Shown here: positions 1 through 45,317 of the stretch, piece after piece
Layout: the number at the start of each line of letters is the position of its first letter
Position numbering within the stretch: the first letter of the stretch is position 1
IMG/VR virus record: IMGVR_UViG_3300049255_000231
Location: 1-45,317 of that record
DNA: 45,317 nt
Origin: a virus
Reading direction: 5' to 3' (one strand)
Program-made: the position numbers and the translations under genes
Notes under the pieces: generated by a model
Databases searched by the model: none
The model's input: only the letters and a program-made list of their open reading frames with translations
Told to the model about the DNA's origin: nothing

Positions 1-1
1 G

Positions 2-1642: not shown

Positions 1643-1651
1643 ACGTGTCCG

Positions 1652-1735
1652 ATGCAGATCATTAGCCGAGCGGCAGCTAAAGAGGCTGGCGCCGCGCCTG
1701 TCGTATTCGCGCGGCAACTGGGGCTGCTGTGCTGA
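1652..1735 (+). CDS. 27-codon ORF between portal and protease (doubtful)
   Basis: A short ATG-started frame lies in the 86-base gap between portal and protease and overlaps the GTG start of the protease in a GTGCTGA arrangement, so it could act as a coupling leader. The peptide begins MQIISRAAAKEAG. That resembles the first residues of some phage HNH/recognition proteins, so it may be the stub of a lost gene. Nothing else supports expression. Confidence 0.22.
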   Translation: MQIISRAAAKEAGAAPVVFARQLGLLC

Positions 1736-2601
1736 ATTTTCCCTTTCTTTCGCAGCAGATCTTCAACCGGCCGCTGGCGATCCGGCCGGAGAAGGCCGAG
1801 ATCATTATGGGCGCGCTGGCCGATCGCCTTGGCATCGTGCGCCTGCGGCTGCCGGATGGGCGCATCCGCGCGTTTGACGGCGGCGACGTGATCTTCGACA
1901 GCGATGGGCCGGTCGGCCAGGGCGCGGGTTATGAGGCGGTCGCCGGCGTCGCGGTGATCGAGGTGCATGGCACGCTGGTGCAGCGCCAGCTCGGACTGCG
2001 GCCGGTGTCCGGCATGACCGGCTACAATGCGATCCGCACCAACATCTTCACGGCGCTGGACGATCCCGGCGTGAAGGCGATCGCGCTCGATATCGACAGC
2101 GGCGGCGGTGATTGCGCGGGCCTGTTCGATCTGACCGACGCGATCTTCGCGGCGCGCAGCGTCAAGCCGATCTGGGCCATCCTGGACGAGAGCGCCGGCA
2201 GTGCAGCTTATGCCATTGCCGCCGCGACGAGCCGGATCACGATGCCGCGCACCGGCTATGCCGGGTCGATCGGCGTGATCGCTCTGCACGTCGATGTGAC
2301 GAAGATGCTGGAGAAAGAAGGCGTCACGGTCACTGTCGTGCAGTACGGCGCACGCAAGGCCGACGGCCAGCCGATGGTCCCGCTGTCGGCTGCGGCCCGC
2401 AAACAGATGCAGGCCGACGTCGATACCCTCGGCGAGCTGTTTGTTGGGTCGGTCGCGCGCTATCGCCGCCTGCCGGCGACGAAGATCCGTGACCAGCAGG
2501 CGGCCGTGTTCCTGGGCGCCCGGGCGCTGGAAGCCGGACTGGTTGATGCGATCCTGAGCCCGGCTGCGGCGTTCGCCGCCCTGGTGCGTTCCCTGAACTG
2601 A
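1729..2601 (+). CDS. Prohead maturation protease, S49 (SppA/gpC-like) family
   Basis: Serine protease that removes the scaffold and processes head proteins during capsid maturation. The 290-residue product shows the ClpP/SppA fold signatures: a strand followed by DIDSGGGD near residue 125, the nucleophile region ESAGSAAYAIA with probable catalytic Ser158, and a downstream lysine in GARKADG (about Lys210) that would complete the Ser-Lys dyad. Lambda gpC fuses protease and scaffold; here the scaffold-like protein is a separate downstream gene. The start is GTG at 1729; an internal ATG (residue 27) is an alternative because relatives often begin near the MGALADRLG segment. Confidence 0.9.
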   Translation: MLNFPFLSQQIFNRPLAIRPEKAEIIMGALADRLGIVRLRLPDGRIRAFDGGDVIFDSDGPVGQGAGYEAVAGVAVIEVHGTLVQRQLGLRPVSGMTGYNAIRTNIFTALDDPGVKAIALDIDSGGGDCAGLFDLTDAIFAARSVKPIWAILDESAGSAAYAIAAATSRITMPRTGYAGSIGVIALHVDVTKMLEKEGVTVTVVQYGARKADGQPMVPLSAAARKQMQADVDTLGELFVGSVARYRRLPATKIRDQQAAVFLGARALEAGLVDAILSPAAAFAALVRSLN

Positions 2602-2612
2602 AGGTTCGTGTC

Positions 2613-3641
2613 ATGGCAAAAACGACCTTGCACACCGAAGCGGAAAGCGCGGCGCACGCGCTGATCCGCGTCGGCCACTACGACATGAGCGCGGCGTGGA
2701 GCTTCTCGGCCGAGGACGGCGACGCGCTGCTCGGCCCCAAGGGCGATGACTGGGACAAATTCGGCCGCTGGCATCTCGGCGAGGACGCGTCCGAGCCGCG
2801 CGAGACCAAGGCGCACTGGAAGTATCCGTATGGCAAGGACGGCAAGGTCTGGCGCCGTGCGCTGGCCTCGATCCGGTCGCGCGCCTCGCAGAACGGGGAC
2901 ACCACGATTTTCGACGCCGCCGGTCGCCTGATGACGGCGATGGATGACGAAGAACAGAAAAAGGAGAGCGATGTGAGCCTACGACAGATCCTGGCCTCCC
3001 GGTTCAGCCATTTCGCGAATACGCCGGCCGCGGCCGCGGCCGAGGATGGCGGCGAAGACGACGATGAGGCGAAGCGCGCCGCCGCCAGGAAGGCCGAAGA
3101 CGACGAAGCCAGGAAAAAGGCCGAGGAAGAGGAGGAAGCGCGGCGGGCCCGCCGTGCGCGCCGCGCGCGCAAGAAGGGGCGTCGCGCCAATTCCCGCGAG
3201 CGCCAGGAAAATGACGACGACGACGATAATGACGCTGACGACGCCGGCGACGACGATGAGGATGACGACGACGACGCGGACATGAAGAAGGCCGCCACGG
3301 CGGGCCACGAGGCTGCGCTCGATGCCGCGTTCCGCGCCGGCGCGCGGGCTCAGAGGCGCCGCTGTGCCGCGATCTTCGCCCATCAGGCCGCGGCCGCCAA
3401 TCCCATGCTGGCGATGTCGCTCGCTTTCGAGACGTCGATGACGTCGGCCGCGGCGGTCGGCGTGCTGGAAAAAACCCCGGCACCGCCCCGCAACACCGGG
3501 TCGTCCTTGCATCAGCGCATGGCTGCCAGCGGCGCCGCCGCCATCCGCGTTCCGACCGGTGCGCCGCCCGCTCCGGGCGGCTCCCAGGCGATCGCCGCAA
3601 GCTGGGATCACGCTCTGAAGGACTTCGCGCCGGTGCGCTAA
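2613..3641 (+). CDS. Scaffold-like head protein with long charged region
   Basis: Follows the protease by 11 bases. Three parts are visible. Residues 1-110 form a compact acid/aromatic module (WSFSAEDGDALLG, then WHLGEDASEPRETKAHWKYP) that I know as a stand-alone or fused domain in phage head-morphogenesis proteins. Residues 140-225 are low complexity: a Lys/Arg/Glu stretch followed by long Asp runs, probably coiled or disordered. Residues 226-342 contain RRRCAAIFAH and PMLAMSLAFET, typical of the C-terminal part of S49 protease/scaffold proteins. I infer a scaffold that has split from the protease. A role in condensing the head interior would fit the charge; it has not been shown. Confidence 0.72.
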   Translation: MAKTTLHTEAESAAHALIRVGHYDMSAAWSFSAEDGDALLGPKGDDWDKFGRWHLGEDASEPRETKAHWKYPYGKDGKVWRRALASIRSRASQNGDTTIFDAAGRLMTAMDDEEQKKESDVSLRQILASRFSHFANTPAAAAAEDGGEDDDEAKRAAARKAEDDEARKKAEEEEEARRARRARRARKKGRRANSRERQENDDDDDNDADDAGDDDEDDDDDADMKKAATAGHEAALDAAFRAGARAQRRRCAAIFAHQAAAANPMLAMSLAFETSMTSAAAVGVLEKTPAPPRNTGSSLHQRMAASGAAAIRVPTGAPPAPGGSQAIAASWDHALKDFAPVR

Positions 3642-3699
3642 GCGCCGTCCCGCGCCGGTCCAATTTCCTGCCCCAAATCCTCCAACCTGGAGCACGCTG

Positions 3700-4677
3700 A
3701 TGGTTTCGCCCGTATTGATTGAGCGCCGGCATTCGTTCGGCTTCCTCGTAAGCGAGGAAGAGCAGGGCCGTTCCCGCGATCAGGTGGTCTTGCTGCAGCA
3801 GACGCCGGCCGCGGCGCCGAGCGCGCCATCCCTGTCGGCCGGCACCAGCGGCTCACTGCCGACGTCGACCATTTACTGCAAGGTCACCTATGTCGGCGCC
3901 TTCGGCGAGACGCTGCCGTCCGCCGAGGCCAGCCAGGCGGTCACCGGTCCGAACGGCGACGTGGTCGTCACCGCGCCGTCGACCGTTGCCGGCGCGACCG
4001 GATGGAATCTCTACGCGTCAAGCGCCTCGGGTGGCGAATTCCTGCAGAATGCGGTGCCGAACGCTCTGGGCAGCAACTTCACGATCAACTCGTTGGTGGT
4101 GGGCGGGGTATCGCCGCCGACGGTGGCGCCCAGCACGGAGCTGCCGGCGGGCCTCATTCTCGGCCAGACCCTGGTCGGAACCTCGGCGACCTACACCGCC
4201 AATTCCGGCAACACCGGCAATTTCACCTGCGGCACGGTGACCGTTGCCCAGGGCGCCATCGAAGGCACCTATATGATCGAGTTCATTGCCGCGACGGTGT
4301 TCAACGTGCAGGCGCCGAACGGCGTCGAGTACGAAGGCCATACCGGGGTCGCGTTCAGCGCCGGCGGTCTCGGCTTCACCATCACCGCCGGCGGCACGGC
4401 CGCCGTCGCCGGCGACGGCGCGACGATCGCCCTGGCGACCAATGCCAACGCGGGGCTCTATGCGCCGCTGAACCTCTCGGCGGCCGACGGCACGCAAACG
4501 GCCGCGGCGATCCTCGCCAACGAGATCGACGCCTCATCTGCCAACACCAAGGTCACCGTGATCGACCGGGCTGCGCAGGTGAACGGCTCGGAGCTGATCT
4601 ATCCGGCTGCGGCGACGGCGGCGCAGATCACCGCGATCAACGCGACCCTGGCAACGATCGGCGTTATCGTTCGCTGA
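3700..4677 (+). CDS. Head decoration protein (lambda gpD family) with inserted Ig/FN3-like domain
   Basis: Capsid-stabilising surface protein. The gpD-type parts are an N-terminal arm (FLVSEEEQGRSRDQVVL) and a C-terminal core from about residue 147 (LPAGLILGQTLVG ... LILGNEIDAS-like region ... GSELIYP). Ordinary gpD proteins are about 110-130 residues; this one is 325. The extra length includes a beta-rich, Thr/Ser/Gly-rich segment at residues 38-145, containing TIYCKVTYVGAFGETLPS and GWNLYASSASGGEF, which reads like a fibronectin type III or Ig-like module. Such modules on decoration proteins can mediate weak binding to cell surfaces or mucus; that role is inference. It sits directly before the major capsid gene. 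Confidence 0.8.
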   Translation: MVSPVLIERRHSFGFLVSEEEQGRSRDQVVLLQQTPAAAPSAPSLSAGTSGSLPTSTIYCKVTYVGAFGETLPSAEASQAVTGPNGDVVVTAPSTVAGATGWNLYASSASGGEFLQNAVPNALGSNFTINSLVVGGVSPPTVAPSTELPAGLILGQTLVGTSATYTANSGNTGNFTCGTVTVAQGAIEGTYMIEFIAATVFNVQAPNGVEYEGHTGVAFSAGGLGFTITAGGTAAVAGDGATIALATNANAGLYAPLNLSAADGTQTAAAILANEIDASSANTKVTVIDRAAQVNGSELIYPAAATAAQITAINATLATIGVIVR

Positions 4678-27778: not shown

Positions 27779-28074
27779 CCTCGATCGGCAGGTTGCGTAC
27801 GCGAGGATCGTCGATCGGTGCCTGACATAAAACGAGAGTGCCGCGAGGACGCGCGGCGGATCGCTGGCCTCGTCATAGATGACGTTGCAGCCGATCCGTT
27901 TGTTGGTGACCTGGACGAAAGGTGGGGCCGGCCGCCGTCAAGCCGCAGCCGCTGCAATGTCCGCACGGAGACGGCCAGAAGCGTAGCGGCTTCTCTTTCC
28001 CGCAACACCAGCTTGTCGTCCGCCAACGTCCGGTAATCTCCGGCAATGTCCGGTCGGTCATCCGGCATCGTCAT
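27779..28074 (-). pseudogene. MerR/excisionase-like HTH gene, apparently frameshifted
   Basis: ATG at 28074 overlaps the integrase 3' end. The first 52 residues (LREREAATLLAVSVRTLQRL) form a winged-helix/MerR-type HTH as in phage excisionases. After RLRLDGGRP the frame loses sense, while the +1-shifted frame reads PFVQVTNKRIGCNVIYDEAS, the expected continuation (family members read LDGGGPPFVQ). The shift lies near 27918-27925. The shifted frame then runs on toward the downstream zinc-protein frame. A sequencing indel would give the same picture. Confidence 0.5.
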
Positions 28075-29188
28075 CCTCCCGTCTGCTCAACCGCACCATC
28101 AGACCCTTGGCGAGTCCCTTCTGATCGGCTGCCGCCCGATACCGTGCCCGCACCCGCGGGTCGGTGTGCGGCACGATCGCATCGAGCTCGGCGTCGGTGG
28201 CGCCGCGCTCAGCCGCCCAGGCCATGAACCCTTTGCGGAGCCCGTGAAACGACAGGCCGGCGAGCCCGGCCTCGGCGACCGCCGCAGCGAACCGGTGATT
28301 GAAGTGGTCGATCCGCCAGGGCCGGCCGTCGGCCCGCGTCAGCAGCGTCACCGCGGCCGAGGCCGGGGCAGCATCCAGGATGCGGGTCAGCTCGGGATGC
28401 TCCATTACCATGCGCCGGGCGGCCGAGGACCGGCTGGTCTTGGCGGGCACGACCTCGATCCAGCCGCCGGCGCGTGCCGTGCGCGTCATGGCAAGGCAAT
28501 CGCCCTTGCGCTGCCCGGTATACCAGCCCAGGGCGGCGGCACGTTTCAGCGGCTCCTCGATCGCCTCGCAGGCCATGAATTTGTCGAAGTCCGCCCGCGT
28601 CCAGGTTTTGAAGCCCTCGCCCTCGCTCGGAAGACGGCGGGGACGCTCAGCTGGATTGTCTGATCGCCATCCCAGCGATCCGCGGGCATAATTCATCAAG
28701 ATCGACAGCACCGCGATCATCCGGTTCGCCTGGCGCACGTTGCCAACGATACGCGTTTCACCGGGCTTTGCGGGATCTGGCGTTTGACGGGTTGCGTAAC
28801 GGTCCCGCAGCTTCCGAACATGGTGTGCCTGAAGCGTAACCGCCGACAGATGCCCGTGTGCTTTCTCCAATGGTCCAAGCGCCTTCTCGTAGTCGCGCTT
28901 TGTTGCGGGCTTGAGCCATTGAAAATCGACTGATTTGCGATAACGCGCGATCAAATCAGACAGGCTTTTTGGCGCGACAGTTTGCTCCTCGCCGGCGGCG
29001 ATCGCCGCGGTCTCCCCGGCTTCGAATGCGGCATGCGCCAGGTTCCACGCCGTCGCCAGCGCCGTCGCATCACCCGGGTCCACCGGACGTCCGGCCGCAT
29101 CCAGCAGGCGGCAATTGGTCCCCGCGCGCCGGTAATAGGCGACATGCCCGTGCCGCGCGCGATAGATGTGCAGATATTTAAGCCGCAC
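28058..29188 (-). CDS. int: Tyrosine recombinase / integrase
   Basis: Catalyses site-specific recombination between attP and a host tRNA. I choose the GTG at 29188 (GTGCGGCTTAAA) because it gives MRLKYLHIYRARHGH, the usual start of this integrase group, and overlaps the excisionase stop. The 376-residue product has an N-terminal arm-binding domain, a core-binding domain (residues about 75-170), and a catalytic domain with TGQRKGD (Arg about 223), a KTSR lysine region, HGLRKG (His-x-x-Arg about 310-313), a further His in VPHTDP, and the nucleophile Tyr about 349 in RARYRAAADQ. All six catalytic positions appear present. Its 3' end faces attP. Confidence 0.92.
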   Translation of the reverse strand: MRLKYLHIYRARHGHVAYYRRAGTNCRLLDAAGRPVDPGDATALATAWNLAHAAFEAGETAAIAAGEEQTVAPKSLSDLIARYRKSVDFQWLKPATKRDYEKALGPLEKAHGHLSAVTLQAHHVRKLRDRYATRQTPDPAKPGETRIVGNVRQANRMIAVLSILMNYARGSLGWRSDNPAERPRRLPSEGEGFKTWTRADFDKFMACEAIEEPLKRAAALGWYTGQRKGDCLAMTRTARAGGWIEVVPAKTSRSSAARRMVMEHPELTRILDAAPASAAVTLLTRADGRPWRIDHFNHRFAAAVAEAGLAGLSFHGLRKGFMAWAAERGATDAELDAIVPHTDPRVRARYRAAADQKGLAKGLMVRLSRREDDDAG

Positions 29189-29462
29189 GGCCGTCACCGA
29201 ATTCACGATCCCAGTCGCTTGGCGCATCCGCATCAGATGCCGCTTCAGCGCGAGCGTTGGGCCGGCCGGCCTTCGCGTCAAGCCAACGGTCGAGATCTTC
29301 CTTCAGCCACACCACGCGCCCGGGCGAGATCCGCACCGGCGCCGGAAACCGTCCGGCAACCAGCTCGGCGCGCAGCAGGCTGGGTGAAATGCCCAGATAC
29401 GAGGCGGCCAGTTCGATCCGCATCCCACGCGGCCAGTCCGGCAGGACCACGGGATCAGTCAT
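29178..29462 (-). CDS. AlpA/excisionase-type HTH protein
   Basis: 94 residues from ATG 29462. The segment MRIELAASYLGISPSLLRAE followed by FPAPVRISPGRVVWLKEDLD is the winged-helix pattern of AlpA/Xis proteins. It overlaps the integrase start, so it is coupled to integrase and likely sets the direction of recombination. The C-terminal tail (residues 65-94) is acidic and unconserved. Confidence 0.85.
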   Translation of the reverse strand: MTDPVVLPDWPRGMRIELAASYLGISPSLLRAELVAGRFPAPVRISPGRVVWLKEDLDRWLDAKAGRPNARAEAASDADAPSDWDREFGDGRAA

Positions 29463-30711: not shown

Positions 30712-31704
30712 TCAGGCGTTCTGCGCCAGGACGCGTCCGACCGCCGGCGCAATATCGAGCGCTGCCGGAAACGCCCGATATTCCCACTCGTCCAGCCTCG
30801 CCCCGGCCGCGTGCTTGCCAACGCGTACAAATCGCTGGCCGCGGACATGATCAGGGTTGACGTCGTCGTCGATCGGCATGCCGTACAAGCCAATCGCGCA
30901 CTGACGCCGATGATCGCACGACCATTCAGCGATCGGTGCCCAGTCGCCCCACTGCTTGAAAAAGAACGGCACGCCCGCAGCGGCGCATTGACGCCGCAAT
31001 TGCCGAAACCATTCCGGATGCGCCGGACGCGCACCGTTGCCGCTCTCGCCGCCGGCGATCACCCAGTCGACCCGCGGCATCCCGCTGACCGCACCGGTCT
31101 CGGGATCGAACCGGCGGCCGGTCAGGCAACCTTCCCAATGGCTATCGCCATCGATCAGCCTGGGCCGCGCCCGTAACCGGTTCAGATCGATCGGACCAAG
31201 CAACGGCTCGCAGGACAGGAAACGATGCTTCGCCGGCGTGCCGCACAGGATGGGGATGCGCCGTGCCGCCTCCTCCTGGTTTTCCGCGGTGACGCCGAGC
31301 CAGACATTCGTCCATCCGCTGCCCCACACGCGCGGCAGCATCTTCTCCATGTTCTGCGGGCGTTTCGTCAGCAGCAGCCAATCAAGATGCCGGCATTGAA
31401 AGATCAGGTCCCACAGATCGAGGCGCCACTGCGCGTCGATCTGATTGTCGAACACATCGGCAAGCGATGCACAGAAGACCCGCTTGCGGATGCCGGACTC
31501 CCTGGCCACCCGATTCCATTTGATCGGCAGCTGCCAGTTTTCGACGCTGCTGCGCCGGCGCTCGCCACGCCACAGCTCCGGCGATCCGGTGCGTTTCGCC
31601 AACGCTTCGGCATAGCAATGATCGCAACCGCAGCTCACCTTTTCGCAGCCGATCCACGGGTTGAAAGTGCAGTCGCACCACTCGATCTTGCTGTTCTCGC
31701 CCAT
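30712..31704 (-). CDS. DUF5131 / phage Gp37-Gp68 family protein
   Basis: 330 residues. The start KIEWCDCTFNPWIGC, then CGCDHCYAE, is the family hallmark; Cys20, Cys27 and Cys30 form a C-x6-C-x2-C set reminiscent of a radical SAM/Fe-S site. Further family motifs: FCASLADVFDNQ, LLTKRPQNMEKMLP, VWLGVTAENQEEAA, HRFLSCEPLLGPIDL and GGESGNGARP. Widespread on phages and plasmids; the reaction is not established. Separate transcription is unlikely: it sits 6 bases from the gene upstream. Confidence 0.9.
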   Translation of the reverse strand: MGENSKIEWCDCTFNPWIGCEKVSCGCDHCYAEALAKRTGSPELWRGERRRSSVENWQLPIKWNRVARESGIRKRVFCASLADVFDNQIDAQWRLDLWDLIFQCRHLDWLLLTKRPQNMEKMLPRVWGSGWTNVWLGVTAENQEEAARRIPILCGTPAKHRFLSCEPLLGPIDLNRLRARPRLIDGDSHWEGCLTGRRFDPETGAVSGMPRVDWVIAGGESGNGARPAHPEWFRQLRRQCAAAGVPFFFKQWGDWAPIAEWSCDHRRQCAIGLYGMPIDDDVNPDHVRGQRFVRVGKHAAGARLDEWEYRAFPAALDIAPAVGRVLAQNA

Positions 31705-32126: not shown

Positions 32127-32269
32127 CGTGCCGGCCTCGCACCGTGCGTCGCGCCGGAGAGCGTCACGCTCCACGGCGCAAGGCCCTCGGTAAACGGCCA
32201 CGCGATGCCGTAAGCCACCGCAAGGATGGCGGCCGCCACGGCCACCATTTCAACAACGCGATTAGCCAC
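32123..32269 (-). CDS. 48-aa membrane microprotein
   Basis: GTG at 32269 overlaps the stop of the ParB-like gene (GTGGCTAA). The product starts MANRVVEMVAVAAAILAVAY and continues GIAWPFTEGLAPWSV. Residues 5-24 form a hydrophobic helix, the rest is polar. Coupled on both sides. Function unknown. Confidence 0.58.
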   Translation of the reverse strand: MANRVVEMVAVAAAILAVAYGIAWPFTEGLAPWSVTLSGATHGARPAR

Positions 32270-33920
32270 GATTTTTCTCCTTGGGTGCGGGTGCCCCGAA
32301 CACAGCCGTGTCCGGGCGATAATCCGGGGCCCGACCGATCAGCCGTTCGCGCAAGGCCGTTGCGTTGCCGCCTGTGATCCGGCGCCCGGCCGCTGCGCGT
32401 TTCAATTCGGCAACGGTTGCGGTTTCCAGAAACTCTGCCGTGTCGAAACGGTCGAGTTGCGCAGCAGCGTCGATCGCCGCCCCCACCCATTCCGCCGCGT
32501 CGCCGCTGAACGGGCTCGTATAAAATCCGCGATCAGCGCCTTCGAAACTCAATATGCGGCCGATCGCCGTCTGCCCGATCGTAACGATGTCGGCCGTTGA
32601 AAGATCGAGCAGGTTGCCGCCCGGTGCGAGGATCCGCGTCGCCAGATCGTCGAAGCCACCCTCGACGCCGCGCACTGTGACGTTGCGTGCCGACAACGCG
32701 AGCACCAGCAACGCCAGCGTCGTCGCCGTCGGCATCGCCGTGCCATCGAGTGCCTTGCGTAATGCTGCGGTTTTCGCAGCCGCGATCAGCGCCAGTCCCT
32801 TTTTGGTAAACGGCGGCTTCGCCTCGGGCTCGCGCGGCTCCGGGCCGTCATCGCCATCCAGGTCATCGTCGTCTGCGTCTTCGGCTTTCGCGTCGGCGCG
32901 CTCATCGTCGCGGCGGTCGGCCGGCGGCTTTGCCGGTTGCTTCCGCTCGGCTGCCTTCGCGGCCTTGGTGTCGATCGCCGTCACGACCTTGATGGTGCCG
33001 TCCGGCGCCACCGCATGAAACGCCCATTCGTGCGCCTTCAGCCGTTCCGGTTTGCCCCAGCTCTCCTTGAAGCCGCCGGGGACCGCGACGTTGTAGGCAT
33101 CCTTCATCGTCGCGACCTGATGGCGCTTCTTCGTCTTCGCCAGGGCGGCGACGCGCGCCTGCAGCGCCTTGGTCTGACGTTTGATGAACCCGTCGACGTC
33201 GGCCGTGGTGAACTGATCGTCAGCGCCCGGCTCGGCAAACAAGTCCTCGTCCCAGACAAGACCTTTTTCGGACGTGTCGAAAATCGCCACCGCCCGCGCG
33301 ATCCGCTGCGTCGTGCAACGCATCACGACCTGGTGCCAGTCGACGCTTTCCTGATCGCCGCGCGCAACGATCAGATCCTTGATCTTCGCTGCCTGAGCCT
33401 GCAGCTTCGCCGGCGCTGCTGCGATCTTCCGCAACGCCGCCGGCGTCGGCATGTCGATCTCGGCCAGTTTCAACAGCGCCGGGTTCAGCCGGCCGAGTTG
33501 CTCCATCCGGCGCATCAGCCGATCGTCAAGGCCGAGCGCGCCGGCGGCCTGTTCGAATGTCAGCCCATGATCCTGAATGAGCGCGCGCACCGCGCGCCAC
33601 TGGTCGACCGGATGCATCGCCTGCCTCTGGATATTCTCGGCGACCTGGGCTTCTTCGACCTCGACGTCGGTCATGACGCGGATCTCGGCCGGAATTTCGG
33701 TCAGTCCAAGCGCCCGGGCCGCAGCGAAGCGGCGGCCGCCAAGCACCAGTTCCAGGGGAGACGTCGTTGCAAACGGCTCGCCCATGGGCCGTAACAAAAC
33801 CGGCTGCAGTACGCCGACCGCGGCGATCGAGCGGCGCAACCCTTCGTCAAGCTCTGGCGGGACCGGAACCGTGCGCGCGTTGCGGCCCGAAACGATCTTG
33901 TCCACGGCGACCATTGGCAT
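32262..33920 (-). CDS. ParB/Spo0J-like protein with long C-terminal extension
   Basis: 552 residues from ATG 33920. Residues 1-115 form a ParB N-domain (IVSGRNARTVPVPPELDE, VGVLQPVLLRP, LVLGGRRFAAARALG, AENIQRQAMHPVDQW), including the GxRR box involved in nucleotide binding in ParB CTPases. An HTH follows (LTFEQAAGALGLDDRLMRRM). Residues 330-385 are a charged Asp/Glu/Lys linker; the C-terminal 170 residues are an unknown helical domain. No ParA is present, so classical partition is unlikely; roles in plasmid-like maintenance, nuclease activity or DNA condensation are possible. Confidence 0.85.
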   Translation of the reverse strand: MPMVAVDKIVSGRNARTVPVPPELDEGLRRSIAAVGVLQPVLLRPMGEPFATTSPLELVLGGRRFAAARALGLTEIPAEIRVMTDVEVEEAQVAENIQRQAMHPVDQWRAVRALIQDHGLTFEQAAGALGLDDRLMRRMEQLGRLNPALLKLAEIDMPTPAALRKIAAAPAKLQAQAAKIKDLIVARGDQESVDWHQVVMRCTTQRIARAVAIFDTSEKGLVWDEDLFAEPGADDQFTTADVDGFIKRQTKALQARVAALAKTKKRHQVATMKDAYNVAVPGGFKESWGKPERLKAHEWAFHAVAPDGTIKVVTAIDTKAAKAAERKQPAKPPADRRDDERADAKAEDADDDDLDGDDGPEPREPEAKPPFTKKGLALIAAAKTAALRKALDGTAMPTATTLALLVLALSARNVTVRGVEGGFDDLATRILAPGGNLLDLSTADIVTIGQTAIGRILSFEGADRGFYTSPFSGDAAEWVGAAIDAAAQLDRFDTAEFLETATVAELKRAAAGRRITGGNATALRERLIGRAPDYRPDTAVFGAPAPKEKNRG

Positions 33921-33937
33921 GGTTCGTTGCTCCCCGC

Positions 33938-34198
33938 TCAGGGCAAGTGCTCGCCACCGGCGAAACCCGCCATCAGTCCGTCGCGCCACTCCGTGAACTG
34001 CGCCGGCACGCGCGGGTGTTCCGTCGGCACGCTGGCGTCGATGAGCCGCTGCCAGTAGGCCGGGTCGCGCATCTGTTTCGATGGTTGATCGTTTTGCAGC
34101 ATCGCCTGCAGGCGGACTTTGGCGAAGTGGATGCGCTCGGCGCTGGTGTAAGCGAACCCGGTAAGAAAGACCTGCGGCAACTCGTATGGATCTTGCAT
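33938..34198 (-). CDS. Small phage protein, unknown
   Basis: 86 residues. The ATG at 34198 is preferred to an upstream one because GGGAGGG precedes it. Helical with Trp/Tyr: YWQRLIDASVPTEHPRVPAQ, FTEWRDGLMAGFAGGEH. Seventeen bases before the ParB-like gene. No known domain. Confidence 0.65.
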   Translation of the reverse strand: MQDPYELPQVFLTGFAYTSAERIHFAKVRLQAMLQNDQPSKQMRDPAYWQRLIDASVPTEHPRVPAQFTEWRDGLMAGFAGGEHLP

Positions 34199-34246
34199 CT
34201 TTTTCCCTCCCCAAAACACGACGATATTTGTTTTATCCCGAGGTCG

Positions 34247-37687: not shown

Positions 37688-38175
37688 CGCGCAAGCCGCG
37701 CATCCTCCCGGCGATAACCCTCTGGCAGCCCTGGGCCTCGCTGATCGCGCTCGGGCTGAAGCCATACGAGACCCGCGATCGCCGGCCGCCGCATCGGTTG
37801 ATCGGCCAGCGCGTCGCCATTCACGCCTCGCTGCGCCGGCCGAAATTCGACGACGTCACGCCGGAAATCCATCAGGCAATGACGGCCAAAACCGGCAACG
37901 CCCTGTGGTTCGAGCTGCTGCCGTACGGCGCCGTGGTCTGCACCGCGACGCTGGAAGGCGCGTCGCCGGCGGATCAGGTGCCGTCCGATCCATTCGGCGA
38001 TTATGCCGCCGGCAGTTGGGCCTGGCGCCTCACCGATGTCTTCCCGCTGCGTCCGCCAGTGCCGGCCAAAGGATGGCAGATGCACGGCTGGACCTGGGCC
38101 GTGCCCGACGCGGTGGAACTCTCGCCGCCGGCGGTCGGACCCCGCCGCGCATCTGAGTCCGCCGATGCCGGCTGA
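37684..38175 (+). CDS. ASCH-domain protein
   Basis: 163 residues from GTG 37684, overlapping the upstream stop (GTGA). ITLWQPWASLIALGLKPYET and then GQRVAIHAS are the ASCH (PUA-like) signature, with a later WAWRLTDVFPLRPP. ASCH proteins bind RNA or modified nucleosides and recur beside phage replication genes. In this position it may act on nucleic-acid metabolism or host mRNA. Confidence 0.85.
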   Translation: MTRKPRILPAITLWQPWASLIALGLKPYETRDRRPPHRLIGQRVAIHASLRRPKFDDVTPEIHQAMTAKTGNALWFELLPYGAVVCTATLEGASPADQVPSDPFGDYAAGSWAWRLTDVFPLRPPVPAKGWQMHGWTWAVPDAVELSPPAVGPRRASESADAG

Positions 38176-39211
38176 AGCGCGCCGGCAATGGCCGGATGCC
38201 AGGGAAGTCGCGGCCGGCCTTGCGGCCCATATCGAGGCCCTGGCGGCCGATCTGCTGCCGGCCGGCAAGCGTAAAGGCCATTACTGGGTGTGCGGCGGTA
38301 CCGGCGGCGAGGCGGGCGGCTCGCTGTTCATCCACCTGACCGGCAGCAAGCGCGGCCACTGGCAGGACGCGGCCACCGGCGAATTCGGCGACGCGCTCGA
38401 CCTGATCGCCGCCTGCGCCTTCGGCGGCGACAAGAAAGCCGCCTGTGCCGAAGGCTTGCGCCGGCTCGGCCTCGCCGGCGTCAAGGGCGGCCCACCACCG
38501 TCGCGGCCGGCGCGGCAGGATCCGCCGCCGGCGACGGAAGATCCCGCATCGGCCAACAACGCGGCGGCCATGCGCATGTGGCTCGAAGCGAAGCCGTCGA
38601 TCATCGATACGCCAGTGGAAAATTACCTCAAAAATCGCAACATCGATTTACGGTCTCTGGGCCGCGCGCCGCGGGCGCTGCGGTTTCATCCGGCGCTCTG
38701 GCACAGCGGCGTTAAGATGCGGCTGCCGGCCATGGTCGCGGCGATCACCGACGGCAGCGGCAGGCACGTCGCCACGCACCGCACGTGGCTGGAATACGCC
38801 GGCGGCGGCTGGATGAAAGCGCGTATCCCAGACAACAAAATGGTGCTCGGCGCATTCCCGGGCGGATCGATCCGGCTGTGGCGCGGCGCGTCCGGAAAAT
38901 CGCTGAAGGATGCGCCGGCGGGCGATCCCGTGGTGATCACCGAAGGCATTGAATCCGGCCTGTCGATCGTCGCCGCCTGTCCCGAGCTGCGCGTCCTCGC
39001 CGCCGTCAGCCAGGGCAACCTCGGCGGCGTCGAGCTACCGCCGCAGATCGGCGTGGTGATCCTGGCGATCGACAACGATCGCAAGCCGCAGGCGCAGGCG
39101 GCGGCGGCGCGGGTGGTCAACCGCTGGTTGGACCGCGGCTACCGGAACGTGCGGATCGCGCGCAGTCCGTTCGGCAACGATTTCAATGATGCACTGCAGG
39201 GGGTTGCATGA
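38165..39211 (+). CDS. Toprim primase-like protein
   Basis: 348 residues from ATG 38165. The N-terminal part (residues 35-75: GHYWVCGGTGGEAGGSLFIH, GEFGDALDLIAAC) resembles the CHC2-derived domain of phage primases with the zinc ligands lost. The C-terminal Toprim domain has VVITEGIESGLSIVAAC (Glu about 258) and VVILAIDNDRK with the acidic D-x-D pair (near residue 300). It would prime DNA synthesis together with the downstream helicase. A catalytic primase core separate from Toprim is not evident. Confidence 0.82.
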   Translation: MPAEARRQWPDAREVAAGLAAHIEALAADLLPAGKRKGHYWVCGGTGGEAGGSLFIHLTGSKRGHWQDAATGEFGDALDLIAACAFGGDKKAACAEGLRRLGLAGVKGGPPPSRPARQDPPPATEDPASANNAAAMRMWLEAKPSIIDTPVENYLKNRNIDLRSLGRAPRALRFHPALWHSGVKMRLPAMVAAITDGSGRHVATHRTWLEYAGGGWMKARIPDNKMVLGAFPGGSIRLWRGASGKSLKDAPAGDPVVITEGIESGLSIVAACPELRVLAAVSQGNLGGVELPPQIGVVILAIDNDRKPQAQAAAARVVNRWLDRGYRNVRIARSPFGNDFNDALQGVA

Positions 39212-39433: not shown

Positions 39434-41347
39434 ATGGCCAAGGCGAAAGATGGGATCCGCGACGCCATTCTCGGCGCCGATCGTCCGTTTCGGGTGATCG
39501 ATGGCGGCGGCGGCAAGCCGCCAACCGGCGGCCGTCCCGCCGACGGCGAAACGCCCTGTCCGGTGACGCCGCTCGGCGATGCCGACGGCGTCTGGCATTT
39601 TCTCGATCCGCTCGGTCAGAAACGCCAGCTGACCGCGCGCGAATTCGGCAATCGTCATGTCGTGCGCGGATTGTTCCGTGGCGACGAACGATGGCTGCGC
39701 GAAAAATTCCCCGACCGCAAGGAATTCGAAAACGAGCACGGCGGCAAGGCGGTGCGCGTGGTCGGCTTTCAGCTCAACGCCGCCGCGGCATGGCTGCAAA
39801 AATTGTGTTCCGATCAGGGTCTTTACGGCGACTTCCTGCAGCTGCGCCGCCCCGGCATCTGGCGCGGCGACGATGGGCTGCCGATTGTGCACGCCGGCGA
39901 CGCGGTGCTGATCGAAGGCAGCTGGTGCGCCGCCGGCACCCGCACCGGCAATCAGATCTGGATCGCCACGCCGCCGGCCCCGCGCCCCGCTGCGCCGTGC
40001 GATCACAGCGTCGGGGAATCGTTTCGTGAGGAAATCCAGCGGCTGTGGAAGTTCCGCCTCGGCGGGGCGCCGCATCTGCTGCTCGGGCTGATCGCCACCG
40101 GCATGCTCGGCACCGCCGCGCGCTGGCGGCCGAACGCGTTTCTGTGCGGCGAGGGCGGCAGCGGCAAGACCATGCTGATGGATGTGCTGCGCGCCGCCTG
40201 TCCGATGCATGCCTACAGCAACAACGCCAGCGAGGCCGGCGTCACCAGCCTGATGAACGGCCGCGTCGTGCCGATCTTCATCGATGAGAGCTCGGACCGG
40301 CAGAACCAGGGCGGTGCCGATGCGCTGATGGATCTCGTGCTGGCCTCGGCCTCGGGCGACGGCACCAAGGCGGTCCGCGGCCGCGCCGACGGCGGTTTCC
40401 GCACGATCGAAATGGCCGGCTGCATCCTCTACGGCTCGGTCAACCCGCCGAGCATGCAGCCGCAGCATCTCGGCCGCATCACCTTGATCGAGCTGCTGAA
40501 GCCCGATGGCGGCGAAGATGCGCGTGCCGAGCAAACCGCGCTCGCCGAATGGGCCCGTATCAACGGTCCGGCGTTGTGGGGCCGGGTGATCGCCAGCGCC
40601 GAGCGTTGGCATGCCAGCCTGACGGTGTTCCGCACCGCGCTGGCCGAGGCAGGCTGCGCGGCACGCGAGATGGATCAGATGGGCGCGCTGCTGGCCGGCT
40701 GGTGGATCCTCACGCACGAAGGCCTGCCGGGCGAGGCGGGTGCGCGCGAAGGCGTCGGCATGGCCGCCGAATTCATCCGCCCGGCCTCGGATACGATCGA
40801 GGACAGCGGTCCGCGCCGCGCCGTGCAGCACCTGCTGTCGCAACTGATCCAGTTCGACGGCACCACGCGACAGGAACAGGTCGGGATCCTGCTGGAGCGC
40901 GCCTGGACGCCATCGGATGAGGCCTGGGACCATCAGGCCGACGCCAAAGTGCTGGCGCGCTTCGGCATGCGTCCGATCCGCCCCTGTCTGGAGCGGTTTC
41001 AATGGCGGGTGCCGATGCCGGAGGAGCCGGATTTTCCTAACGGTCCGGTGAACTGGCGGGCGCGTCCCGATCGGCCGGGTGACGTGATCGCCGGCTGCAC
41101 CTGCAAATCCTGTCTCGACCATCAGAAGCGTCCCGTGCCCCGGCTGAGCGCCGGTGGCGGCATCTGGTTGATGCCAATGGCGCTCAAGCCGCTCTATCGC
41201 GGCGTGCACGGCCTCGATGGCGATCGCTGGCAGATCGAGCTGCTGCGGCTCGGCACCCGATCGCGGACGTCGGTGCGCGTCGGCGGCGTCGTAGGCAAGG
41301 CGATCTGGCTGCCGCGCGAGGCGATCGATGACGGCGGTGGCCAATGA
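39434..41347 (+). CDS. Replicative ATPase/helicase-like protein
   Basis: 637 residues. Walker A GEGGSGKT at residues 239-246; Walker B FIDES with Asp284-Glu285; further motif SVNPPSMQPQHLGRI (a sensor-like arrangement) around residue 338. The N-terminal 200 residues form a unique domain. The layout resembles DUF927/VapE-like phage helicases that follow a Toprim primase. A Cys pair (CTCKSC, about residue 556) could bind zinc. The repeats that follow immediately may be its origin. Confidence 0.8.
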   Translation: MAKAKDGIRDAILGADRPFRVIDGGGGKPPTGGRPADGETPCPVTPLGDADGVWHFLDPLGQKRQLTAREFGNRHVVRGLFRGDERWLREKFPDRKEFENEHGGKAVRVVGFQLNAAAAWLQKLCSDQGLYGDFLQLRRPGIWRGDDGLPIVHAGDAVLIEGSWCAAGTRTGNQIWIATPPAPRPAAPCDHSVGESFREEIQRLWKFRLGGAPHLLLGLIATGMLGTAARWRPNAFLCGEGGSGKTMLMDVLRAACPMHAYSNNASEAGVTSLMNGRVVPIFIDESSDRQNQGGADALMDLVLASASGDGTKAVRGRADGGFRTIEMAGCILYGSVNPPSMQPQHLGRITLIELLKPDGGEDARAEQTALAEWARINGPALWGRVIASAERWHASLTVFRTALAEAGCAAREMDQMGALLAGWWILTHEGLPGEAGAREGVGMAAEFIRPASDTIEDSGPRRAVQHLLSQLIQFDGTTRQEQVGILLERAWTPSDEAWDHQADAKVLARFGMRPIRPCLERFQWRVPMPEEPDFPNGPVNWRARPDRPGDVIAGCTCKSCLDHQKRPVPRLSAGGGIWLMPMALKPLYRGVHGLDGDRWQIELLRLGTRSRTSVRVGGVVGKAIWLPREAIDDGGGQ

Positions 41348-41356
41348 AATCAACGC

Positions 41357-41508
41357 TGTAACCGCTGTGACCGGCTTGTGACCGCCCTGTGACCGGGGAA
41401 TGGTAAGGAATTCAATGCTGTAACCGCGTGACCGCCTGACCAGCGATTTCCTTTATGTGAGTTCTCGCTCATAGGACAAACACCGGTCACACAGGTTACA
41501 GGTTACAG
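41357..41508. repeat. Iteron-like TGTRACCG repeat cluster
   Basis: Plus-strand copies TGTRACCG at 41357, 41366, 41377, 41388 and 41419, with a near copy CGTGACCG at 41427. Inverted copies lie at 41485-41492 (CGGTCACA), 41494-41501 and 41501-41508 (both GGTTACAG). Near-identical 23-base blocks start at 41350 and 41412. The array fills the 188 bases between helicase and the next gene. Candidate origin or operator; no other gene is visible there. Confidence 0.72.
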
Positions 41509-41535
41509 ATAGATAAATAGAATAAGGATATCAGC

Positions 41536-42021
41536 ATGCTGGAAGATTTTCGTTACTGTGCCCGAACTGAGACCGCTGTGACCGCCCGTCGCACAATGAC
41601 GGACGCCATGACGCAGCTGGTTGCCGGCGTCATCGTCGAGCTGGAAGCCGCCGGCGCCACGCTTCTCGCGCTGCCGATGAGCGGCTATTCGACCACGCTG
41701 CGCACCGGCGGTCTCGACTTCGTGCGCGACGCGATCGAGAGCTACGGCTGGACCGACATGCCGATCCGCCCCGCGGTGCCATCCTCGCGCGCGATCAGTC
41801 GGATGGACGCCGCGTTGGCCTGGATCTCGCTGATCCCGGAAAACCGTCTGGTGCTGCGCCGCATCGTCGGTGCGCGCGCGCTGGTGCATCCGATCACCGA
41901 ACGGCATCTGTTCTCGTGGCGCCGATTGGGCAATCTGCTGAAGACCGATCATCACGCGGTGCAGCGCCAGCACCTGGAAGGGATCGAGCTGATTGTGGCC
42001 CGTCTGGCGACCCAAAAATAA
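41536..42021 (+). CDS. HTH protein of the DUF6362-like type
   Basis: 161 residues; AAGGA lies 8 bases upstream of the ATG. Residues 30-120 form a mixed domain; the C-terminus HLFSWRRLGNLLKTDHHAVQ, then HLEGIELIV, is the HTH recognised in DUF6362-like phage proteins that precede the terminase. Likely a DNA-binding regulator of late genes or packaging; not proven. Confidence 0.68.
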   Translation: MLEDFRYCARTETAVTARRTMTDAMTQLVAGVIVELEAAGATLLALPMSGYSTTLRTGGLDFVRDAIESYGWTDMPIRPAVPSSRAISRMDAALAWISLIPENRLVLRRIVGARALVHPITERHLFSWRRLGNLLKTDHHAVQRQHLEGIELIVARLATQK

Positions 42022-42140
42022 ATTTCAATATGCGCTCCACAAATCCCACGGAATCGGGTATCGATTTATCACGCTACGCGAATCCCGTGCCCGCCCGGTC
42101 TCCTGACCTGGTGGGCACGCTGCGTTTGGGGGTAATCCGT

Positions 42141-42836
42141 GTGATCGAGCTCTCGATTGACGACGCCGGCCTGACGCGAATGGAGCGCTCGCTGACCATC
42201 ATCGCCCGCGAGCAGCTGCCCTTCGCCATGTCGCGCGCCCTGAACGATTGCGCCAAAGCCGCAACCGTGGCCGTCAATCGTGCCATGCCCGAAGTCTTCG
42301 ATCGGCCGACGCAGTTCACTGAACGCGCGGCCGTCGCCCCACGTGCCCTGGCTGCCACCAAAACCCGCCTGCTTGCCGAACTGACGCTGCGTCCCATCCA
42401 GGCGCAATATCTGCAGCTCGAGGAAACCGGTGGTGTGCGCACCGGCGCGATGAACACCCGCAAGCCGTCGAAGACCGTGCTACTGCCAGGCAAGGCGATG
42501 CCGCTCGACGAGTTCGGCAATATCCCGCGCGGCACGATCGCCGGATTTGCCGCGCAGGTCAGACCGCCGTCGAAACGCACGCGCGCCAAGGCTGCGGCAA
42601 AATCTGCGCCCGCCGTGTTCTTCCTGCCCGCTGCATCGCCGGCCAATCTGGCGAAGATCTCGGGGTGGTTCCGTCGCCTCCCCGGTCACACCCTGACCCG
42701 GCTGACCGCCTTCGAAAAATCCACGCACTATCACGAACGCATGGGCTACCGCGCCCGGGTCGAGGCCGCCGTCCGTGCGACGTGGCCGAAGGCGATGCTC
42801 GGCCGGCTGCACGAGGCCATAAAAACCGCGCGCTGA
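42141..42836 (+). CDS. Putative virion/tail-associated protein (FDRPT-type)
   Basis: 231 residues from GTG 42141, preceded by GGGGG; the upstream ATG 42030 has no ribosome site. The segment PFAMSRALNDCAKAATVAVN, then MPEVFDRPTQFTERA and LTAFEKSTHYHERMGYRARV, is found in a recurring tailed-phage family of probable morphogenesis proteins. Its position just before cos and terminase is unusual for a tail gene, so the role is open. Confidence 0.65.
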   Translation: MIELSIDDAGLTRMERSLTIIAREQLPFAMSRALNDCAKAATVAVNRAMPEVFDRPTQFTERAAVAPRALAATKTRLLAELTLRPIQAQYLQLEETGGVRTGAMNTRKPSKTVLLPGKAMPLDEFGNIPRGTIAGFAAQVRPPSKRTRAKAAAKSAPAVFFLPAASPANLAKISGWFRRLPGHTLTRLTAFEKSTHYHERMGYRARVEAAVRATWPKAMLGRLHEAIKTAR

Positions 42837-42841
42837 CGCCG

Positions 42842-42910
42842 CGCGGGTCCTTCCCCCCGGTCCCGGCCACCACGGGTATTTCGCACCCCGGTATGGGGGT
42901 GGCGCTTAGT
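42842..42910 (+). other. Probable cos packaging site (lambda-type)
   Basis: The 13 bases CGCGGGTCCTTCC (42842-42854) match the sequence at the lambda right end beside cosQ, as I know it. About 30 bases downstream is a symmetric GC-rich element, CACCCC-loop-GGGGTG (42884-42901), in the place of the cosN nicking site. The small terminase follows, as in lambda. This intergenic space has no ORF. The exact nick positions cannot be read from sequence alone. Confidence 0.68.
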
Positions 42911-42929
42911 AAAATTTTTGGAGGTTCGG

Positions 42930-43529
42930 TTGTCATTGGCGTGCTCGTCTGAGGCGCCGCCCGGCATCCCAGCCGTGCGCGTCAACAAGCGGGAGCTGGC
43001 CCGTATACTCGGCGTGTCCCTGCCGACGATCGGCGCGTGGCTCGACCGCTATCCCGAGTTCCCGGTGCTGCAATCCGGCACCAACGGCCGCGAGTATCAG
43101 TTCGACGCCGTCGCCGTCCGCGACTTCATGGCGATCAAGGATGCCGAGGAAGAGCGGCTCGAAAAGGAGCGGGAGGCGGCGATCGCCCAGCTCGGGCTGC
43201 CGCTGGAAGAGCAGACTGAGGACGGCGCCGGCGCCCTGAAACCGCGCGAGCGGCTCGACCATGTCCGGGCAATCTCGGCCGAGGACAAGCTGCGCCAGGA
43301 ACGCGGCTTCCTGGTCAGCGTGCCGGCGGCGCGGCAGGCGATGACGGCGGCGGTCGCACGGTGGAACCGGGCGATCCATGCCCGCATCCGCCAGGACGGC
43401 CGAGACTTCAACCTGCCGGATGCCGTGGTGCGGGCCTTGCTCGCCGGCGTCGCCGAGACCCAGCACCAGTTCGTGCGCGAGCTGGGCTACGACGCGGGCC
43501 TGACCGAAGCCGGCCGCAATGCCGCCTGA
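42930..43529 (+). CDS. Terminase small subunit, Nu1-like
   Basis: 199 residues from TTG 42930; GGAGG ends 5 bases upstream, so I prefer it to the in-frame TTG at 42918. Residues 20-75 form a winged HTH (VNKRELARILGVSLPTIGAW, TNGREYQFDAVAVRDFM) as in lambda Nu1, which binds cosB. A Glu-rich helix follows, and the C-terminal part (QERGFLVSVPAARQAMTAAV) would bind the large subunit. Directly after cos, overlapping terminase large by 11 bases. Confidence 0.87.
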   Translation: MSLACSSEAPPGIPAVRVNKRELARILGVSLPTIGAWLDRYPEFPVLQSGTNGREYQFDAVAVRDFMAIKDAEEERLEKEREAAIAQLGLPLEEQTEDGAGALKPRERLDHVRAISAEDKLRQERGFLVSVPAARQAMTAAVARWNRAIHARIRQDGRDFNLPDAVVRALLAGVAETQHQFVRELGYDAGLTEAGRNAA

Positions 43530-45317
43530 TATCCCTTACTTCGACGCCGGCCAGCTGGTCGCCGAGGTCTTCGCCGCTGCCTTCCTGCCGCCGACGCCGG
43601 TCAACGCCGCCGAATGGGCCACACGCCATCGCTGGCTCACCAACGACGGCGGCGGCTATGTCGGCCGCTGGCGTCACGATATCGCGCCCTATCTCCGCGA
43701 GCCGATGGAGGTGGTCAGCGACAATGCGTTCCTTACCGGCGTGGTGGTTGGGCCGGGGCAGTGCGGCAAGACAGAAATCGGGCTGAACTGGCTCGGCGCC
43801 TCGATCGACGGCAACCCGGGCGATCTGCTGTGGTACATGCAGACCGATTCGGCTGTGCAGGCCTTCGTGAAGTCGCGCATCAACCCAATGATCGACGAAC
43901 ACGAGGTGCTGCGCTCCAAACGAGGCCTGCGGGCAACCGACGACAGCCTGTCCTACAAGCAGTTCACCGGCATGGCGGTCGAGTTCCTGGCGGCCACCCG
44001 TAGCGCAATGATCAACAAGCGGGCGCCGCGGATCCTGGCCGACGAATGGGACGCCTATGATCCGTCGATCGGCGATCCGAAGATACTGCTCGATATTCGC
44101 CGGCAGACCTTCGGCCGCGAATCCATGCTGCTGGCGCTGTCGCACCCCGATCGCGCCGGCGGCCTCGATCCGCGGCACTGGAATGCCGGAATCATGGCGC
44201 TCTATGCGCAGTCCGACCGGCGGATCTGGTACTGGCAGTGCCCGGAGTGCGGCGCCTGGAGCTCGCCCAATCCGACCGCCGAGCGCGTGATGGTCCTTGA
44301 CTATCCCGACGCCGACGGTGTGCCGCTCGATGAGATCGCCGACGCGACGCGGCTGCTCTGCCCGGTCAACGGCTGCGTGCTGGAAGACGCGGCTCGCAAG
44401 CAGATGAACCTGACGGGCCGCTGGATCGGCGCCGGTCAGACGATCGACCAGGACGGCACGGTGACCGGCGCGCTGGCGCCGTCCGATGCCGCCGGCTTCT
44501 GGATCGTGGGCCTGATGTCGCCGTTCCTGCTGCAGGGCATGGGCGGCCTTGCCCGCGACCGGGTGAAGGCCACGCGGGAGCGGGAGGCGACCGGCAGCGA
44601 CACGACGCTGAAGGAAGTCATCGTCAAGGGCTGGGGCCTGCCATACGAACGGCCGCGTGCCGTGGGCTCGATCGACGCCAACGTGCTCGCCGATCGTGCC
44701 GACGCCTCGCTGCCCCTGGGCATTGTGCCGGAGGGCGTGCGTTTCCTGACCGGATTTGCCGACGTCCAGGCAAACCGTTTCGAAACCCTGATCCGCGGCT
44801 GGGGACCGCGCGGCGAGAGCTGGATCATCGATCACCGGATGCACCGGGCGGATACCGCGACCAGTCCGGAAGCCTGGGATGCCCTGTTCGTCTGGTTGCT
44901 GGACACGCCATGGCCGCTGGCCGGCAATCCGGGTCGCTTCATGCGCCTGCGGGCAGCCGGTTTCGACAGCGCCGGCGCGCCCGGCGTGACGCAACAGGCC
45001 TATGACGCGTGGCGGCGGGCGCTGGCGGCACGGAAAACCCGGATGCTGGGCCGGTTCGACGGCCGCGAGGCCTGGAACCTGATCGGCACGAAGGGCGCGG
45101 CCTCGCTTGGGGCGGCGCCGCTGCAGGTGACCCGGCCCGACAGCGCGCGGAATGATCGACGCGCCCGCAGCGGCGGCGCGGTGCCGATCGCGTTATTCGG
45201 CGCCAACGGGTTCAAGGACAATCTCGCCGGCCAGCTCGGCCGCGGCGAGCCCGGTCCCTGGTATGTGCACTTTCCGGCCGGCCTGCGATCCGAGGCGCCG
45301 CCGCACCTGTGGTTCGA
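43519..45317 (+). CDS. Terminase large subunit, GpA family (3' end beyond window)
   Basis: Packaging motor and nuclease. The reading frame is open from ATG 43519 to the window edge (599 codons seen). Walker A GPGQCGKT (residues 78-85; Cys replaces the usual Ser) and Walker B-like LADEWDAYD (Asp175-Glu176) mark the ATPase. A zinc-ribbon pair follows (CPECG at about 239, CPVNGC at about 278). The nuclease part contains FLTGFADVQANRFE (acidic residue for metal) and GFDSAG. The last visible part, HFPAGLRSEAPPHLWF, is near the usual C-terminal helix, so perhaps 50-80 residues are missing. Confidence 0.93.
   Translation, partial: MPPDIPYFDAGQLVAEVFAAAFLPPTPVNAAEWATRHRWLTNDGGGYVGRWRHDIAPYLREPMEVVSDNAFLTGVVVGPGQCGKTEIGLNWLGASIDGNPGDLLWYMQTDSAVQAFVKSRINPMIDEHEVLRSKRGLRATDDSLSYKQFTGMAVEFLAATRSAMINKRAPRILADEWDAYDPSIGDPKILLDIRRQTFGRESMLLALSHPDRAGGLDPRHWNAGIMALYAQSDRRIWYWQCPECGAWSSPNPTAERVMVLDYPDADGVPLDEIADATRLLCPVNGCVLEDAARKQMNLTGRWIGAGQTIDQDGTVTGALAPSDAAGFWIVGLMSPFLLQGMGGLARDRVKATREREATGSDTTLKEVIVKGWGLPYERPRAVGSIDANVLADRADASLPLGIVPEGVRFLTGFADVQANRFETLIRGWGPRGESWIIDHRMHRADTATSPEAWDALFVWLLDTPWPLAGNPGRFMRLRAAGFDSAGAPGVTQQAYDAWRRALAARKTRMLGRFDGREAWNLIGTKGAASLGAAPLQVTRPDSARNDRRARSGGAVPIALFGANGFKDNLAGQLGRGEPGPWYVHFPAGLRSEAPPHLWF

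Follow-up and report, generated by a model that had tools for sequence, protein, structure and literature searches.

A probable lambda-type cos site ahead of the terminase genes of an uncultured phage with a contractile tail

The element that lies between the tail genes and the terminase genes of this phage can be assigned with high confidence, by analogy with lambda, to a compact cos site of the lambda type, and the packaging mechanism would be lambda-like as well. The window, by which we mean the whole stretch of DNA analysed (45,317 bases), is an entire IMG/VR record. The assignment draws on sequence anatomy, conservation, spacing and the contig ends of relatives, from which we infer binding, nicking and packaging in the window phage. 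On the lambda model, TerS would bind just to the right of cosN, at a cosB-like site, and position TerL. TerL would then nick cosN about 12 bases apart, leaving 5' cohesive ends, and would package rightwards through terS, terL and the portal gene until the cosQ block of the next cos signalled the terminating cut. The features are collected in Table 1.

Table 1. Features of the putative cos site and the adjoining terminase genes, in window coordinates.
Feature	Position	Strand	Basis
cosQ-type block GGGTCCTTCC	42845..42854	+	inside 13-mer 42842-42854; exact, unique
Variable spacer, cosQ to nick	42855..42874	+	30 bases counted from 42845 to 42874, the lambda and N15 distance
Predicted 5' cohesive end GGTATTTCGCAC (cosN core), 12 bases	42875..42886	+	aligned to lambda, N15, RcCronus, R4C and BZS1 ends and to relatives' contig ends
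Inverted arms GGGT (42874-42877) / ACCC (42885-42888)	42874..42888		sequence; similar arms recur in the alignment of relatives
A/T tract, possible bend site (putative function)	42909..42919	+	A/T-rich there in most of 74 aligned sequences
Possible cosB (R3-like) GAGGTTCGGTTGTC	42921..42934	+	bp 47-60 from predicted left end; resembles N15 bp 48-59, same place
Small terminase terS, Nu1 family	42930..43529	+	Pfam PF07471 Phage_Nu1 (E 8e-9), phrog_57
Large terminase terL, GpA family	43519..45315	+	PF05876 GpA_ATPase, PF20454 GpA_nuclease, phrog_15; record end cuts the gene

A sequence-only reading of the window had picked out a block at 42842. The 13-mer CGCGGGTCCTTCC has a single exact match in the window (42842-42854, + strand), and the other 27 matches carry two or three mismatches. 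When the 1.4 kb from 41601 to 43000 was dinucleotide-shuffled 2000 times, no copy of this 13-mer or of the composite cosQ-cosN motif arose. The same reading had likened the block to the sequence beside cosQ in lambda; the likeness is close, with the difference that GGGTCCTTTCC, at lambda's right end, has one T more, and the placement needs correction, as the 13-mer contains the cosQ-type sequence itself rather than lying beside cosQ. As expected of a lambda-type cos site, the cosQ-type block stands at the lambda distance from the predicted nick, 30 bases in the window, lambda and N15 alike. Across 74 non-redundant sequences (window included) the distance was 30 bases in 52, 29 in 18, 31 in three and 32 in one.

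The top-strand nick is predicted between 42874 and 42875, with an overhang of 12 bases or perhaps 13 (to 42887). Base 42875 would thus be the left end of the virion DNA and base 42874 the right end. The GC-rich symmetric element that had been noticed in cosN position corresponds to the GGGT/ACCC arms flanking the predicted cohesive end. They provide the two-fold symmetry typical of cosN; only the arms pair, and the centre of the overhang is unpaired. The predicted length also agrees with the short cohesive end of 10-12 bases anticipated from the letters, and the predicted left end falls, as had been proposed, just ahead of the small terminase gene. We rejected one apparent correspondence, that of window CGGGTATTTCGC with lambda CGGGTTTTCGC as homologous flanks: by the virion ends, the window stretch is the overhang and the lambda stretch lies to the right of it.

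Since the stretch is intergenic and GC-rich and has inverted arms, we also considered whether it might terminate transcription or act as an RNA element, placed as it is between the tail genes and terS, and have no part in packaging. Its RNA fold is no more stable than that of shuffled sequences (z +1.44), terminator-like matches occur on the other strand only (42826-42846), and what is conserved beside the terminase genes is the letters and not a stem. We consider this explanation hardly credible, and return to the cos reading.

The terminase genes adjoining the site are of the expected kind, a Nu1-type TerS followed by a GpA-type TerL, both assigned by Pfam, and the Phage_Nu1 match bears out the earlier description of the small terminase as Nu1-like. 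Read as its longest frame, terS would begin at 42918. Because a Shine-Dalgarno-like GGAGG lies at 42920-42924, the TTG at 42930 is the probable start codon. A tblastn search with the window terS as query matched no phage record.

If the block belongs to the packaging site, it should recur upstream of related terminases, and its absence from close relatives with the same terminase had been named as grounds for abandoning the cos reading. Relatives were collected by TerL alignment, giving 75 loci from genome_contigs and the best 80 of 563 from viral_contigs; with viral loci L005 and L114 left out, the test set comprised 153 loci (L192-L344). We scored GGGTCC(C/T)T within 1300 bases upstream as the block and a profile E-value of 1e-150 or lower as a close TerL. 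The block was found upstream of the close TerL in 46/46 genome loci and in 37 of the 42 testable viral loci (among the best 80 of 563; nine more were too short). In the same close-TerL loci, the antisense control scored 0/46 genome and 1/42 viral, the reversed motif 4/46 and 1/42, and the interior of terL 0/46 and 0/42. As for the five viral misses, the contigs of L280 and L316 start at cosN, L301 and L304 carry GGGTCCTCCC in place of the block (one substitution), and in L268 the block lies 1.6 kb upstream.

With distant TerLs the block was present in 18/26 genome loci and 5/23 testable viral loci and absent from 8/26 and 18/23, respectively (viral loci again from the best 80 of 563; three genome and four viral loci were too short). 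The block is therefore not universal for GpA terminases. It should also be noted that L245, L246 and L247 have equal-score TerL matches (27% identity, 6e-49) in genomes recorded as Aeriscardovia, Vreelandella and Clostridia, and look like one contaminating phage; the first letters of L247 resemble what we take to be a sequencing adaptor.

The association also holds from motif to terminase. A scan of IMG/VR with a DNA-only pattern returned at least 119 motif loci. Among the listed loci, 100/119 have a GpA-like TerL downstream on the same strand, mostly at 0.5-0.9 kb and in a few cases at 1.4-4.4 kb; the raw tally of 105/124 takes in the window, L002, L004, L005 and L006. Most of the remaining 19 listed loci have little downstream DNA, and GpA_ATPase scored above the cut-off in 11 of the 12 records that were searched whole. 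Clustering at 45% identity divides the 86 longer TerLs from these loci (at least 119), the window and its close relatives among them, into 15 clusters. A blastn search with a 76-base piece of L067 gave nothing useful among phages.

Several loci have features of their own. L031 and L046, in which terL is not near the motif, were examined as PICI-like satellites, and this was rejected as GpA_ATPase is present in both records. In L046 a ParB/methyltransferase gene and then a terS-like frame follow the motif. A ParB-like/methyltransferase gene also lies between cos (or the left end of the record) and terS in the Rhodobacter phage RcKemmy (L142:110-811) and Vibrio phage X29 (L631:140-745), as at L046:930-2333. 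The composite motif at L031:6202-6238 is about 10 kb before terL, ahead of a phrog_1924 tail gene like the one that precedes cos in the window, and may be either a cos that has moved or a coincidental match. The contig start at L008:1-134 is a long run of TGCCTG hexamer repeats.

Contig ends were used as a stand-in for read-end mapping, and those used here come from relatives in other samples rather than the window phage. If linear virion DNA has its 5' ends filled in, the contigs assembled from it should have their first base at the start of the overhang or their last base at its end. A search with GGTAATTCGCACCCCGNT returned 68 stretches; in L157, L160 and L181 the match is at contig base 1, and in L172 it is one base after, so that this contig starts one base early. 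Among the TerL-selected viral contigs (best 80 of 563), the predicted base is the first base of L280, L302, L316 and the more distant L318, while L286 starts one base early. L299, whose first base falls within the predicted cosN overhang, is left out of the supporting set. Among contigs that stop near the cut, the last base of L465, L475 and L545 lies exactly 12 bases past the nick; that of L017 and L074, apparently a single phage, lies 13 bases past it. Locus ends within 80 bases past the nick fall at 12 (three), 13 (two), 20, 32, 36, 54 and 76 bases; the first five of these and L178 were checked in whole contigs and the other four were taken from the loci. L178 had been a candidate for a contig end at the cut and proved to be internal. 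For the fixed ends expected in virions of a cos phage, the contig ends of relatives agree with an overhang of 12 or 13 bases.

The exact cut may differ from the predicted one by at least one base, for example with a 13-base overhang at 42875-42887. The contigs that stop at 13 or start one base early (L172 and L286) would fit such a shift, as would the 13-base overhang of RcCronus, the 14-base overhang of R4C and the GGGT/ACCC arms, which are centred on a 13-base overhang. The three contigs that stop at 12 bases, and the 12-base overhangs of lambda, N15 and BZS1, argue against it. We regard a shifted cut as possible but unlikely.

Much less probable, to the point of being very unlikely, is headful packaging from a pac site, in which the block would serve only for TerS recognition and the first cut and the virion ends would be permuted. 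This possibility arises from the topology of the assembly. The window opens within a portal gene of the lambda family and breaks off within the GpA-type terL. In the contig L004, which comes from another sample, a match to window 39491-45317 is followed after 621 bases by a match to window 1-4377, at 99.98-100% identity, so the two ends of the window are neighbours, as in a circular or permuted genome, and the genome unit would come to about 45,938 bases (45.94 kb). Because both the window and L004 cross the cos site, part of the sequenced DNA had joined ends; taken alone, this does not discriminate between cos and pac. Against permuted ends, the contigs of relatives have fixed end points on either side of the predicted overhang, and related records with fixed ends have the block 26-32 bases before the cut. 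Our data favour cos packaging on these grounds.

The tail genes include a sheath gene (phrog_165), matches to DNA_circ_N, Mu Gp45 and Baseplate_J, and the phrog_1924 gene, which ends at 42836, upstream of the cos site. By these matches a Mu-type contractile tail is well supported for the window phage. The window also holds integrase-like phrog_1 (28058-29281, -), ParB-like (32262-34214, -), TOPRIM primase (38003-39211, +) and DUF5131 (30712-31704, -) frames; because of these, the phage may be temperate.

To the right of cosN, relatives have an A/T tract followed by either GTTACAC repeats (about bp 47-60) or GTTGT-rich sequence. Direct repeats in the cosB region were significant by shuffling (p 0.05 or lower) in 33/74 sequences; in the window the same shuffle test of the cosB region gave no significant R-type direct repeat. 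GTTGT or its complement was found at bp 43-70 in 35 of the 46 members of the non-GTTACACG class (shuffled mean 7.1, largest 18), in a test devised post hoc on the same data. In N15, R3 is reported at bp 48-59 (PMC4669245); the letters there are GAGGTTGTTGTT. Since the candidate cosB of the window overlaps the terS ribosome-binding site and start and has no significant repeat, a TerS site at bp 47-60 is offered as a suggestion only.

Taken together, it seems reasonably likely that a large part of the Nu1/GpA phages of Proteobacteria, of any tail type, share a single old cos architecture: cosQ, then a ruler of roughly 30 bases, cosN, and at about bp 45-62 a TerS site like that of N15. It would be so strict that virion ends are predictable from the sequence, and the ends of public metagenome contigs would record the cut to the base. 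PMC4669245 describes cosQ as highly conserved within the lambda-like group; here the same cosQ-30-cosN ruler is extended to at least 15 TerL clusters. Neither this reach across TerL clusters nor use of the ruler to predict ends came up in searches of the open-licence PMC literature, most older lambda papers lying outside it. For an uncultured phage, the cos site sets the likely ends of the virion DNA together with its unit length and the direction of packaging, and the DNA signature finds cos and the adjoining terminase in proviruses and in metagenome contigs without reads.

The closest points of comparison are lambda, N15, R4C, RcCronus and BZS1. In lambda (J02459) the GGGTCC block lies 30 bases before the right virion end, the left end opens with a 12-base 5' overhang, and the Nu1/GpA terminase lies to the right. 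Apart from the additional T in the block, lambda differs from the window in its overhang letters and in its terS start (bp 191, compared with bp 56, or 44, in the window). Its cosB has three R sites, according to PMC4669245, and none were seen in the window. N15 (AF064539), with its 'simple' cosB, has the block 42 bases before the end of its record, 12 of them a repeat of the overhang, which leaves 30; it shares the 12-base overhang and a GAGGTTG-type sequence at bp 48-59. Its terS starts at bp 89, whereas the R3-like letters of the window overlap the terS start.

Roseophage R4C and Rhodobacter phage RcCronus likewise infect alphaproteobacterial hosts and have a GGGTCCTTC block upstream of terS, but at 26 bases from the nick once their overhangs (14 and 13 bases) are removed; the distances in MAR and Mano are 31 and 32. 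R4C is a siphovirus and its 5' cohesive end is a PhageTerm prediction. In six of the 13 phage records with ends compared, the block lies no more than 40 bases from the right end; this is not so in the other seven. Several of these seven have a record that opens with the first terS codon, a start that looks arbitrary; in mEp460, a GGGTCC lies 190 bases from the end. Stretches upstream of terS/terL carry the block in VHML and phiAP1, and have no GGGTCC in Pyei1 and X29. Pben1 and phi2LM21 also carry it. In Paracoccus phage Pben1 (L139), about 108 bases before terS, GGTCATTCGCGC occurs twice in near tandem downstream of the GGGTCCTTCC block, a pair that resembles a duplicated cosN half.

The sequence-only reading had presented the union of a Mu-type tail with lambda-style cohesive ends as the point of interest. 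Both parts are supported, but the combination was already known. Serratia myovirus vB_SspM_BZS1 (MT843275) has a contractile tail, a Nu1/GpA terminase and a 12-base 5' overhang with the block 31 bases ahead of it; these ends were identified with PhageTerm and then checked by PCR across the prophage site (PMC7556043). BZS1 differs in its overhang letters (GCATTGCGCGCC), and its TerL is only distantly alike. The cos site of the window phage is thus of an ordinary kind, and the evidence from relatives supports it well at the level of single bases.
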